A stretch of DNA of 42,576 bases from Omnitrophica bacterium GWA2_41_15 (GTDB lineage: Bacteria; Omnitrophota; Gorgyraeia; Gygaellales; Profunditerraquicolaceae). Every line of letters begins with the position of its first letter. The stretch's first letter is position 1. A program made the translations under genes and the position numbers. The DNA lies in the NCBI GenBank assembly GCA_919902045.1, contig CAKKSP010000011.1, positions 1-42,576 of the forward strand, in the 5' to 3' direction. Of the stretch, positions 38,549 through 42,576 are shown piece after piece. The notes beneath the pieces were generated by a model. The model did no database searches. It had not been told where the DNA came from and worked only from the letters and a program-made list of their open reading frames with translations.

Positions 38549-38716
38549 CTAAAATCTCCTCTTAGCCTTCGCTTTCTTTCTTTTACGCTCGCTGGGCTTC
38601 TCGTAATGCTTGCGCTCCCGGACCTCTTTTAGAATACCGTCCTGTTCCACGTCTTTTTTAAAACGGCGCAGCATTGCTTCAAATGATTCGTTTCTAACTG
38701 GTTGATTTTCTTGCAT
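38549..38716 (-). CDS. rpsU: 30S ribosomal protein S21
   Basis: This gene encodes 55 residues: [20 protein letters not shown], then [20 protein letters not shown] and a C-terminal tail rich in Lys and Arg ([15 protein letters not shown]). This matches bS21, a small protein on the 30S platform near the anti-Shine-Dalgarno end of 16S rRNA. AAGGGGTGA stands 6 nt before the ATG. It has its own consensus-like promoter and a folded leader of about 108 nt. The following TIM-barrel gene starts 3 nt later. Confidence 0.96.
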
Positions 38717-38740
38717 TTTTAATCACCCCTTGTCAATTAG

Positions 38741-38824
38741 ACAACACCAGCGCACATTTGCGCAAAAGCGCATGCCGGCGTAATTCCTATAGGCGCCGGG
38801 CTACCGATTGCGCTGGGTGTTTGT
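38741..38824 (-). promoter_or_regulatory. Structured 5' leader RNA of rpsU (three-stem junction)
   Basis: On the minus strand this 84-nt segment folds as follows. P1 pairs 38824-38809 with 38754-38741 (14 pairs, two single-base bulges). P2 pairs 38801-38794 with 38780-38774 (7 G-C-rich pairs, one bulge) over a 13-nt loop. P3 is TGCGC-TTTT-GCGCA (38772-38759). Transcription from the adjacent promoter should begin at about 38824, the first base of P1. The ribosome site lies 10 nt after P1. It may be an autoregulatory site for S21, but I cannot name a known RNA family. Confidence 0.7.
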
Positions 38825-38831
38825 AGGAAAA

Positions 38832-38860
38832 ATAATACCATTTGCCGGTCAAAATGTCAA
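38832..38860 (-). promoter_or_regulatory. Strong sigma70 promoter for rpsU
   Basis: The minus strand reads TTGACA (38855-38860), a 17-nt spacer and TATTAT (38832-38837). It lies just downstream of the TonB receptor stop at 38877, and the predicted start is about 38824-38825. It is one of the two best promoters in the window. Confidence 0.78.
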
Positions 38861-38876
38861 TAGTTTTACTATTTTA

Positions 38877-40886
38877 CTAAAATTTAATCTCTACGCCTCC
38901 AGTAAATGTTTCACCCGGCGCCGGATTAAAATATTTTGTAGCGCCGCTTACAAAACCATGGGAGTTGTATTTTCTGTCAAAAAAATTATCAATTGCCAGA
39001 AATATCTTCATTGCTTTATATTCATAGCTCACCTTAGTATCCGCTGTTATATAACTTAAAAGTTTATTGCCGTTTGTCGAATCAATATAAGAGCTGCCAA
39101 CATACGTAACAGCTAAATCCCAACTCAACCCAAACTCTGTAGCAAAATGCAATCCTGAACTTGCCTTATGTATCGGGATGTTGGCCAGATATTTCCCGCT
39201 ATAACTTCCTGTTTCATTTTTTGCCCGTGAATAGGTATAATTCGCAAATCCTGACAACCATTTGACAATTCTAAAATCTAAACTCGCCTCTACGCCTTTA
39301 TGAGATGTTTTACCATAATTCTGATATTTTACGCTAGCATAGTCATACCAAATTTCATTATCAAGCTCCATCCAGTAAAAGCTTATATTTGATTTCAAAG
39401 ATTCGTTAAAACGATGGCGTAATCCGATTTCATAGCTTGTCGCTTCTTCAGGCTTTAAATCAGGATTAGCCGAGCTTCCATAAGTAAACATCTGGCCTAT
39501 TGTAGGAGTCCTGAAGGCCTGAGCATAATTAGCATAAAGATTCGAATCTTTCTGATACATATAAACCAGGCTGCATCTCGGAGTTAATTTAGACATTTTT
39601 TCTGTCTTTGAATTATTTGTAGTTTTGCGGTCGTCAAAATCAAAATCTACCCAATCATGCCTCATCCCTGCGATAAACCGTAAAGCGTCAATAAGCCTAA
39701 TTTCATCTTGAAGGTACGGCCCGATTTTGCCCCTTGTAACTGCGTAATCGCTCTGAAGCGCTCCTCTTTGCTGATACGGTGCTTTGTATTCCTCATAATT
39801 GAAATAATCTTTTCCCAGGTCAATTCCTGCAGTAAATTCATGTTCTAAGCCCATAATTTCCTGATTTAAGCTGCCTTTCAGCAATACACCATAAGCATCT
39901 TCATCCTCAATCTGCTCTTTTTTCGTACTCTCTGCACTTCCACTTGTATAAAATGAATCTACGTCATTATTTTTATAATAAACTATTGCTTCTGTTTTTG
40001 CCTCATCATTTATATCCCAAGCGTGCGTAATGCTTACGTCGCTTTTTGTTCCGCCGCTTTTATCATTTTCGCTACCCGGGCGTGCCTGACGCCGATCCTG
40101 CGCAATCTGGGCCTCAGTCAATGCCCACGGAATAGCGCCTCTTTCTTTCTCATAATAGTCTAATGACAATCTTAAGTTTTGAGCATCGTTAATTGTATAA
40201 TCTAACTTTCCCTCCGCATGAGTCCTATCGTAATCACAATGTTGCCGAAATCCCTCCGTGGTTTTATAACTTACCCCCGAAAGCACCCTTAGTTGTTTAT
40301 TATACGCTCCCAAAATCGAAACTCCGTACTCCTGCGTATTAAAGCTGCCGAAAGAAGTTGATACTCGAATTTCAGGCTTATCCTTCGGCTTCTTAGTAAT
40401 AATATTTATTACTCCGGACATGGCATTATCTCCGTAGAGAGCTGACGCAGGGCCTCGTACAACTTCGACGCTCTCTATGTTATCCAATGAAATCAAATCC
40501 CAATCAACCAGCTTATCTGCGCCTTTATTCTGCGGTATTCCGTCGACTAATACCAGTTGATGGCTAGACATACCTCCATAAAAACCGCGCATATTGACAA
40601 CACCGGTAGACCCTACTCCGGAGGAATCATACGTATATATTCCCTCAACATTCTTCAATAAATCAGGAATGCTTTTTGCGTTGGTCTGCGCGATTTCTTG
40701 AGCAGAAAGAATATTTACGCTCGCTGGCGTTTCTGACACCTTTCGCGTTGTCCTTGAGGCAGTTACGGTTATCGACTCCAGTTCAATAATTTTTGCGTTA
40801 ATATATTTGTCTTCTTCAGCATAAGCCGATAAGGCAATTGTTAATGTCATTATCCCTGTAAAAAGTAATACTCTCTTTTCCATCAT
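38877..40886 (-). CDS. TonB-dependent outer-membrane receptor (BtuB/siderophore type)
   Basis: This 669-residue protein has a signal peptide (KRVLLFTGIMTLTIALSAYA), a TonB box-like IELESITVTAS, a plug domain (about residues 50-165) with LLKNVEGIYTYD, MRGFYGGMSSHQLVLVDGIPQ, VEVVRGPASALYGDNAMSGVINIITKK, and a long 22-strand barrel ending in VEIKF, with terminal Phe for Bam-dependent insertion. BtuB-like size and the adjacent FecCD/BtuCD-type ABC genes point to cobalamin or an iron chelate. Either of two adjacent ATGs (40886 or 40883) may be used; the second has better spacing from AAGGA. Confidence 0.93.
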   Translation of the reverse strand: MMEKRVLLFTGIMTLTIALSAYAEEDKYINAKIIELESITVTASRTTRKVSETPASVNILSAQEIAQTNAKSIPDLLKNVEGIYTYDSSGVGSTGVVNMRGFYGGMSSHQLVLVDGIPQNKGADKLVDWDLISLDNIESVEVVRGPASALYGDNAMSGVINIITKKPKDKPEIRVSTSFGSFNTQEYGVSILGAYNKQLRVLSGVSYKTTEGFRQHCDYDRTHAEGKLDYTINDAQNLRLSLDYYEKERGAIPWALTEAQIAQDRRQARPGSENDKSGGTKSDVSITHAWDINDEAKTEAIVYYKNNDVDSFYTSGSAESTKKEQIEDEDAYGVLLKGSLNQEIMGLEHEFTAGIDLGKDYFNYEEYKAPYQQRGALQSDYAVTRGKIGPYLQDEIRLIDALRFIAGMRHDWVDFDFDDRKTTNNSKTEKMSKLTPRCSLVYMYQKDSNLYANYAQAFRTPTIGQMFTYGSSANPDLKPEEATSYEIGLRHRFNESLKSNISFYWMELDNEIWYDYASVKYQNYGKTSHKGVEASLDFRIVKWLSGFANYTYSRAKNETGSYSGKYLANIPIHKASSGLHFATEFGLSWDLAVTYVGSSYIDSTNGNKLLSYITADTKVSYEYKAMKIFLAIDNFFDRKYNSHGFVSGATKYFNPAPGETFTGGVEIKF

Positions 40887-41695
40887 TTCCTTTCCCTCTC
40901 CGGCGAGTTCGTTTTTATTTCATCTTCAGAAACCAGCAATACATACGGCTTGGCAGAAACCGGGTTCTTTTCCACCACTACCACTGTTTTATAAACCTCT
41001 TCAATGATTTTATAGTTGATTACGTCTTCGGTTGCCCCTTCCCTAAAAATCCTTCCGTTACTTAACAGGATTAAACGCCGGCAGTATTCGCTGGCCAGAT
41101 TCAGATCGTGTAAAACCATGAGTATTGTCAACTCTAATTCCCGATTCAACCGTTTTATCAGATCCAAAATTCGCACCTGATGGGTAATGTCTAAATATGT
41201 TGTGGGCTCATCCAGTAAAAGGAGTTTTGGCTGTTGAGCAAGCGCGCGGGCAATAAATACAAGCTGCCTCTCTCCTCCGCTTATCTGAGTCATAAGATGA
41301 TCTTTAAACCTCAACGTATCAGTTAAGCGCATGCATTCTTCGGCAATTTCCAGGTCGTCCTTATCTTCAAAAAATTGGAAATTTTTTAAATGCGGAATTC
41401 TGCCTAAAAGAACAAATTCTTCTACAGTCATCGATATAGGATTAATACCCTGCGGAAGTACTGCCATCTTCCTTGCTAATTCTTTGAAGCTCATCTGCCA
41501 GATATCTTCCCCGTTTAAGATAACTGCGCCTTTTTTTGGCTTAAGCGTACGGCTAATCCCGCGCAGCAATGTAGTTTTTCCTGAACCGTTAGGCCCGATT
41601 ATGCCTACAATCTCCTTATTATTAACTTTAAAATTAATATCCTGGACAAAAAAATTCCCCGTGTATCCGCAGGTCAGATTCTTGATTTCTAACAT
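40883..41695 (-). CDS. ABC transporter ATP-binding protein, FecE/BtuD family
   Basis: This 270-residue ATPase has Walker A GPNGSGKTTLLRG (near residue 34), a Q-loop in AVLPQGI, the signature SGGERQLVFIARALAQ, Walker B LLLLDEPTTYLD, and the switch His in LMVLHDLNLASEYC. It is the cytoplasmic motor for the permease gene just upstream (7-nt overlap), serving the TonB receptor gene that follows (ATGA overlap). Substrate type, cobalamin or ferric siderophore, cannot be settled from this subunit. Confidence 0.94.
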   Translation of the reverse strand: MLEIKNLTCGYTGNFFVQDINFKVNNKEIVGIIGPNGSGKTTLLRGISRTLKPKKGAVILNGEDIWQMSFKELARKMAVLPQGINPISMTVEEFVLLGRIPHLKNFQFFEDKDDLEIAEECMRLTDTLRFKDHLMTQISGGERQLVFIARALAQQPKLLLLDEPTTYLDITHQVRILDLIKRLNRELELTILMVLHDLNLASEYCRRLILLSNGRIFREGATEDVINYKIIEEVYKTVVVVEKNPVSAKPYVLLVSEDEIKTNSPERERK

Positions 41696-42576
41696 GGCTT
41701 TCTGGTAAAGGTGTAGATAAAGAGGCTTCCACCTAATATCCCGGTAATCACGCCAACCGGAAATTCTATCGGCGCAATTATTGTCCGGGCTAAACTATCA
41801 CAAAAAATTAAAAAAACAGCTCCGCTCAAAAAAGAGCTGATTAAAAGAATCCGGTGGTCGTTTCCTACAAGCCGGCGCATAAAATGCGGTACGATAAGGC
41901 CGACAAAGCCGATCATGCCGGCAATTGATACGCTAAAACCCGTAAGTAATGACGCCAGGATAAAAAGCAGCCGTTTGCTCTTTTCAACGTTTATGCCCAA
42001 ATGCCTTGCCTCCTCTTGGCCTAAAGAAAAAGCATTCAGGTCAAAACAAAAAATATACGCTGCAATTAAACCCAGGATTGCCATTCCCAACGCTAGTTTT
42101 ATCAATAACCAATTCGGCTGGTCAAGTGAGCCCATTATCCAAAAAACAATTCCGTGCAAATCTTCGGCCCGGGAAATAGCCATAATCAACATGATCAGCG
42201 ATGAGCAAATAAAACTTAACATTACTCCGCAAAGTAGGAGCCCTTGCATCCTTAAAATCTCCTGTTTCACGCTTAAGGCATATACCAGTGTTATTACGCA
42301 AATACCTCCCAGAAAACCAAATATAGGCAAACTTAATAAACCAAACACATTCTGCATACGTAAGACGATATTCAAACACACACCCAATGCCGCTCCGCCT
42401 GAAATACCTAAAGTATAAGGCTCAACCAGGGGATTACGGAACATCCCCTGCAGAATTACTCCGGCAAGGCTTAAAGCGCCTCCGATTGCAAATCCCAGGA
42501 GAATCCTGGACAGGCGGATATCAAAAAGAATAACGAATCGGGCATCTGTACGGCCTTTTGAAATGATTTCACCGAT
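41689..42576 (-). CDS. ABC transporter permease, FecCD/BtuC family, 5' end beyond window
   Basis: The frame is open to the right edge, giving 295 codons plus the stop. The upstream part reads ARFVILFDIRLSRILLGFAI, then GGALSLAGVILQGMFRNPLV, the classical FecCD/BtuC entry (RLPR...GvilQg...NPL), so the ATG at 42444 is internal and not the start. Later landmarks are GISGGAALGV, GIVFWIMGSLDQPNW, LGQEEARHLGINV, SIAGMIGFVGLIVPHFMRRLVGNDHR and FPVGVITGILGGSLFIYTF, which include the ATPase-coupling loop. About nine membrane helices are present in the visible part. Confidence 0.94.
   Translation of the reverse strand: MGEIISKGRTDARFVILFDIRLSRILLGFAIGGALSLAGVILQGMFRNPLVEPYTLGISGGAALGVCLNIVLRMQNVFGLLSLPIFGFLGGICVITLVYALSVKQEILRMQGLLLCGVMLSFICSSLIMLIMAISRAEDLHGIVFWIMGSLDQPNWLLIKLALGMAILGLIAAYIFCFDLNAFSLGQEEARHLGINVEKSKRLLFILASLLTGFSVSIAGMIGFVGLIVPHFMRRLVGNDHRILLISSFLSGAVFLIFCDSLARTIIAPIEFPVGVITGILGGSLFIYTFTRKPC

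Follow-up and report, generated by a model that had tools for sequence, protein, structure and literature searches.

A dispersed double-hairpin element of Omnitrophota, nested upstream of rpsU, as a probable mobile mRNA leader

The window (the 42,576 nt stretch of Omnitrophica bacterium GWA2_41_15 DNA analysed here) carries the rpsU gene on its minus strand. A GC-rich fold (38819-38730, minus strand) begins ~12 nt past the rpsU promoter and is followed by the Shine-Dalgarno (SD) region and the gene itself, raising the question of whether this fold is a regulatory leader belonging to rpsU. A reading made from the sequence only had proposed that it is, with the ribosomal protein S21 feeding back on its own ribosome site through the fold. 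The promoter described in that reading (TTGACA, 17 nt, TATTAT) was found where it had been placed (Table 1), and in relatives, where rpsU gave tblastn matches at 60-76% identity, it is kept as TTGACA-17-TATATT-like sites, including in relatives without the element. The SD region AAGGGGTGA of rpsU is the counterpart of AAAGGAGATGAT in relatives that lack the element. A transcription start near 38824 was again predicted, with the fold beginning 3-5 nt later, and the outer helix (P1), previously counted as 14 pairs, consists in the minimum-energy fold of 12 pairs and one bulged C. The two further helices P2 and P3 do lie in the loop of P1 and together form one complete inserted unit, and the 10 nt thought to separate P1 from the ribosome site are part of an overlooked hairpin B, which abuts the SD. 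For the 38690-38824 transcript the folding energy is -41.8 kcal/mol (z = -2.18), a stability equalled in 3 of 200 shuffles. Further upstream of rpsU (38877-42576, minus strand) are genes for a TonB-dependent receptor, an ABC ATPase and a permease, which together, going by sequence appearance only, would make an uptake system for vitamin B12 or iron siderophores.

Table 1. Features of the rpsU leader in the window, and places of the CACCCAGC subgroup in the same genome
Feature	Coordinates	Strand	Basis
-35 box TTGACA, rpsU promoter	38855..38860	-	sequence
-10 box TATTAT, rpsU promoter	38832..38837	-	sequence; predicted start near 38824
Outer hairpin A, 5' arm and half loop (CACCC with bulged C)	38804..38819	-	fold
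Nested inner unit, a second A + B double hairpin within the outer hairpin A loop (P2 + P3)	38759..38803	-	
Outer hairpin A, 3' half loop and 3' arm (GGTG)	38745..38758	-	fold
Hairpin B, TTGTC-TAATT-GACAA, abutting the SD	38730..38744	-	sequence
SD region AAGGGGTGA of rpsU	38723..38731	-	sequence
rpsU, ribosomal protein bS21, 55 aa	38549..38716	-	translation
CACCCAGC subgroup, L091	C31:30840		
CACCCAGC subgroup, L094	C42:13317		
CACCCAGC subgroup, L095	C46:108		
CACCCAGC subgroup, L096	C47:5463		
CACCCAGC subgroup, L089	C2:16658		

An Rfam scan of the window gave no match, in agreement with the earlier impression that the fold belongs to no named RNA family, and a relaxed threshold gave chance-level matches only. 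No description of the element was found in the library of papers searched, and repeats are not mentioned in the Omnitrophota survey paper. Conservation upstream of rpsU, on which a gene-specific leader would depend, was not seen, as the element is absent from 27 further Omnitrophota genomes whose rpsU upstream region could be read, and also at additional rpsU loci of relatives. As most of the 27 have a recognisable promoter and SD without the unit, the copy at rpsU was most likely gained in this lineage.

The fold is also not confined to rpsU. A 101-base query had seven genomic matches. Six are at other genes (an ORF6N protein gene, a rubrerythrin-like gene, rplL inside rplJ-rplL, accB, acpP and a small zinc-ribbon gene), each with the orientation seen at rpsU and ahead of a start codon. 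A covariance model of the short unit, comprising hairpins A and B and the SD, found ~44 places at unrelated genes of the GWA2_41_15 genome. A second model with neither the SD nor the start codon recovered 42 places identical to those of the first, indicating that the flanks of the first model did not create the pattern in this genome. Among 384 Omnitrophota genomes the unit was found in 93. Its own family contributes 61 of these (out of 71), further families of its order 6 and the rest of the class 26, in a patchy pattern, and copy number is likewise patchy among genera. A narrow test of viral contigs, using one loop-class pattern, gave no exact match.

The anatomy of the unit was examined in 154 parsed copies. 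It is ~45 nt long and consists of hairpins A and B with no spacer between them. Hairpin A is made up of CACC, a bulged C, 4-7 pairs, a loop around UAUCGGAU and GGUG; the bulged C is conserved, the G and A of the loop are near-invariant, and the loops differ among copies within one genome. Hairpin B, with 4-7 pairs and a loop mostly of 4-5 nt, directly follows A in 146 of the 154 units. In an alignment of 43 units made with no structure model, pairing held in 99.6% of cells, a percentage inflated by the structure-aware search from which these units came. Two-sided pair changes in the 43 units numbered 99 against 22.7 in shuffles, and the covariation score was 0.562 against no more than 0.103 when slid. 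All five pairs of hairpin B vary, four of them with changes on both sides. In one alignment row (L081) the stem CGCC..GGCG was entered as CACC..GGTG, which lowers rather than raises covariation, and copies found by plain DNA similarity already covary, with hairpin B stems TTGTC/GACAA and TGTGC/GCACA in the same match region. The helices put forward in the sequence-only reading are therefore supported by compensatory changes across homologues, and these, together with the sense orientation of the copies, are the two properties looked for in a structured mRNA leader, although a DNA hairpin that a transposase recognises should also covary.

That the unit moves was concluded from an occupied and empty site, from units within units and from copies inside riboswitches. 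At rpsU, the two parts of outer hairpin A (38819-38804 joined to 38758-38745) are letter for letter the short-form hairpin A of a copy upstream of a parA-like gene in the same genome (L043), and the inner unit is matched independently by model R2 (38758-38802). Nested forms homologous to the rpsU copy are present at three other genes of the genome and nesting also occurs in other genera, with further visible cases missed by a strict count. In genus g29, a gene encoding the protein MGHTCNSI... has the unit in G320, G156 and G213, placed after the preceding stop codon and ahead of the SD, and the same site is empty in G337, where it reads TTATAAGGAGG, and in G255. Comparison of the occupied and empty sites indicates a clean insertion with at most A or AA in common, and the nested unit at rpsU also joins without duplication. 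A comparison of occupied and empty cysK sites in this genus matched paralogues and so is not clean. Copies were further found inside FMN riboswitches, beside tRNAs and terminators, and near other riboswitches. Copies within a genome are more similar than those in different genomes, and orthologous copies are no closer than random cross-genome pairs (mean rank 0.50), which fits independent arrival over descent at most shared genes; shared flanks within a genus indicate descent there. The double-hairpin leaders are a new family of mobile leaders whose dispersal is well supported, and movement would presumably be via some enzyme.

Variant forms and other palindromes were also observed. A subgroup in the GWA2_41_15 genome has CACCCAGC hairpins within longer outer stems, away from start codons, and tRNAs adjoin two of its places (L094 and L095). 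In the leader of a PilZ-domain gene of the same genome (L058, 197-279), a foreign palindrome GCCTGCCTGCCGGCAGGCAGG occupies the hairpin A loop. G025 has about 17 copies (e.g. L194, L195, L205 and L206) of a larger three-way palindrome, in which AACTTAYGGAGC, the double hairpin and AAGCGAACATAAGTT are followed by GGCCGAACTTACCCAGCAC; this palindrome had no Rfam match, and a similar one lacking the unit precedes rpsU in L219 (G015). Units antisense inside an FMN riboswitch aptamer match were seen at L076, L077, L080, L083, L087 and L268, which represent several Omnitrophota families. Group I intron matches (Rfam RF00028) are present in L071 (1149-1438), where the match overlaps a tRNA match ~60 nt from a unit copy, and in L087 (2-200), where it is >1 kb away. 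Palindromes unrelated to the unit lie between the rpsU promoter and SD in L227 (G004) and L229 (G017) (TGGGGTCAGAATTA...TAATTCTGACCCCA; GTAGGGGCGGGTTTCAAACCCGCCCCTAC), and GGGGTCAG agrees with GGGGWSAS, a motif that terminal repeats of Y1 transposase genes are reported to carry (PMC3733652). At the MGHTCNSI gene of G028 (L287), an unrelated palindrome, GGGACCGTTTCC-TGAA-GGAAACGGTCCC, is in the same gap between stop codon and SD that holds the unit in genus g29.

The position of the unit relative to genes is strongly biased. With a leader defined as a unit that has both an SD and an ORF (40 codons or longer) within 45 nt, 94 sense leaders and 3 antisense were found among the genomes examined closely (of 154 parsed units; p = 2e-24), and the start codon is mostly 10-13 nt past hairpin B. 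The unit begins no more than 100 nt after a co-directional stop codon in 61 of 91 cases, about half of these within 16 nt, and a promoter role is unlikely at such copies because the unit trails a same-strand stop codon so closely. The SD is not hidden by the unit, as its unpaired probability was 0.519 with the unit, 0.530 without it and 0.451 with a shuffled unit, and the unit is therefore a self-contained fold. Sequestration of the SD was rejected on the same figures, accessibility being unchanged relative to deletion. Several copies lie where a leader role is impossible, and the best-scoring copies in other families are mostly not leaders (1 of 8 is).

The genes behind the leaders, which from their sequences are taken to include rpsU, rplL, rpsP (twice), rpmE, rpmH, rpmI, rplT, rpsK, rplF, rpsA (twice), rpoA, eno (twice), acpP (twice), the gene for HU (twice), atpE, gapA, metK, carA, carB and that for rubrerythrin (in three genera), recur beyond expectation. 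Across six genera, 13 shared ortholog pairs were counted against ~2.6 expected on a rough background. Ribosomal-protein genes account for 11 of the 94 leaders, an enrichment of about threefold (p about 6e-4) on an assumed background of 50 in 1300, gene-level backgrounds being approximate.

The reading preferred here, to which a probability of about 0.58 is given, is that a mobile palindromic double hairpin has been co-opted as a leader acting at the mRNA level, and that rpsU carries a nested double form of it, inserted between the transcription start and the SD. The family would copy itself around Omnitrophota genomes and settle in non-coding gaps, and copies would be retained mostly on the sense strand, in the stretch that runs from a preceding stop codon or promoter to the SD of a gene in high demand. 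In the mRNA, hairpins A and B would fold on their own and leave access to the SD as it is without them. Any effect would then likely be post-transcriptional, with a stable 5' or intercistronic block protecting the downstream message from decay and separating downstream initiation from the preceding cistron, such that output is raised or fixed relative to that of the neighbours. This would be useful where a gene is needed in excess of its operon neighbours, as for rplL relative to rplJ or acpP relative to fabG. The unit probably tunes mRNA stability or translation, with a presumed benefit to expression.

The main rival, considered unlikely though by some way the strongest of the alternatives, is a purely selfish palindrome that an enzyme inserts just 5' of AAGGAGG-like sequences or into hairpin loops. 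Its position would then tell only of where the enzyme inserts and what is tolerated, the genes being unaffected. Dispersal, nesting, the copies in riboswitches and tRNA spacers, the patchy copy number among genera and the predominance of non-leaders among the best-scoring copies of other families are all consistent with it, and an insertion preference for SD-like sites could produce the same placement bias without any benefit. However, it does not readily account for the 94:3 sense bias, which is seen even though the non-leader copies show that an SD is dispensable in the target, nor for the same genes being hit again in different genera or the enrichment of ribosomal-protein genes. In G028 an unrelated hairpin fills the same gap, which points to selection favouring a hairpin at that position, and other hairpin families may be used likewise in gaps between stop codon and SD.

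A regulon is a further alternative, with these mRNAs under joint control of a protein or small RNA that binds hairpin A at its bulged C and UAUCGGAU loop. It would explain why the bulged C and the loop G and A are so well kept and why one signal precedes many growth genes. A regulon is nevertheless improbable, as the loops vary within a genome and the set of genes carrying the unit differs between genera. CsrA, the obvious binder of GGA loops, is absent in all genomes of the family searched, and a CsrA regulon was rejected for this reason.

Pairing of CACCC with the SD, earlier suggested as a switch between two folds, is at chance level across the family, with at least five contiguous pairs possible in 5 of 94 leaders against 5.1% of shuffled controls. 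In rpsU only, the switched fold is nearly as stable as the other (-37.5 vs -37.9 kcal/mol), and the pairing there may be a local coincidence. An autoregulatory leader specific to rpsU, in which S21, which lies near the anti-SD, or the ribosome flips P1 to CACCC-SD pairing, is very hard to credit, since the near-equal energies at rpsU and the feedback known by another route in Flavobacterium are outweighed by the absence of the element from the readable rpsU leaders of relatives, the ~44 copies at other genes and the chance-level complementarity, which already contradict it. Both outcomes that the sequence-only reading had named as counting against it, lack of conservation in relatives and many copies at unrelated genes, were thus observed. 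The earlier observation of a folded leader is largely right, but the main claim of the interpretation tied to rpsU is wrong.

Short palindromes of bacteria are usually regarded as neutral or 3'-flanking repeats, whereas the family described here, which is spread through a phylum, is mostly found in one functional spot, in sense and in contact with the SD, and returns at the same housekeeping genes in different genera. If the co-opted double hairpin does raise or insulate expression, it would amount to a portable expression module of natural origin, and would clearly exemplify how a mobile element becomes domesticated as an mRNA leader. A more tentative extension, which falls somewhat short of being probable, is that independent lineages repeatedly install the mobile double hairpin in the stop-SD gap of the same high-demand genes, such that transposition of a ready-made mRNA module tunes operon stoichiometry. 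For structured leaders of these genomes, a check for repeat copies should come before any gene-specific riboregulator is put forward.

Among known systems, the feedback on rpsU shown experimentally in Flavobacterium also concerns initiation at rpsU, but it operates through an extended SD and ribosomes without bS21 and needs no folded leader (PMC9976891). REP/REPIN elements resemble the unit in being short GC-rich palindromes in many copies, non-coding, often clustered and with independent flavours in each genome (PMC3733652, PMC3116915). Those mobilised with RAYT transposases have a GTAG or CGTC tetranucleotide at the palindrome end (PMC3733652), whereas either motif or its complement is near the end in only 4 of 94 leaders. 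REPs are mostly downstream of coding regions and REPINs pair in opposite orientation, whereas the unit is in sense orientation upstream of start codons with no opposite pairing. REP/REPIN sequences also flank a Y1/RAYT transposase gene, and no such association was seen for the unit in 15 Y1 stretches searched with model R2, where units were present only in L260 as leaders of neighbouring genes. Membership of the RAYT/REP class was therefore rejected, given the lack of an end tag and of a flanking transposase and the opposite placement relative to genes. The Correia elements (CREE/NEMIS) of Neisseria and other MITEs are likewise small non-autonomous repeats close upstream of genes, and can act at the RNA level through RNase III processing (PMC10969869, PMC2649163). 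In contrast to these, the unit consists of two abutting hairpins of ~45 nt located at the SD itself and in a different phylum, and neither terminal inverted repeats nor a clear target duplication was seen, as judged from one occupied/empty and one nested case. The E. coli ompA leader carries a 5'-stabilising stem-loop, and the unit has in common with it a stable hairpin close to the 5' end and an SD left unobstructed, but it differs from an ompA-type leader in belonging to a dispersed repeat family common to many genes and located mostly between cistrons.
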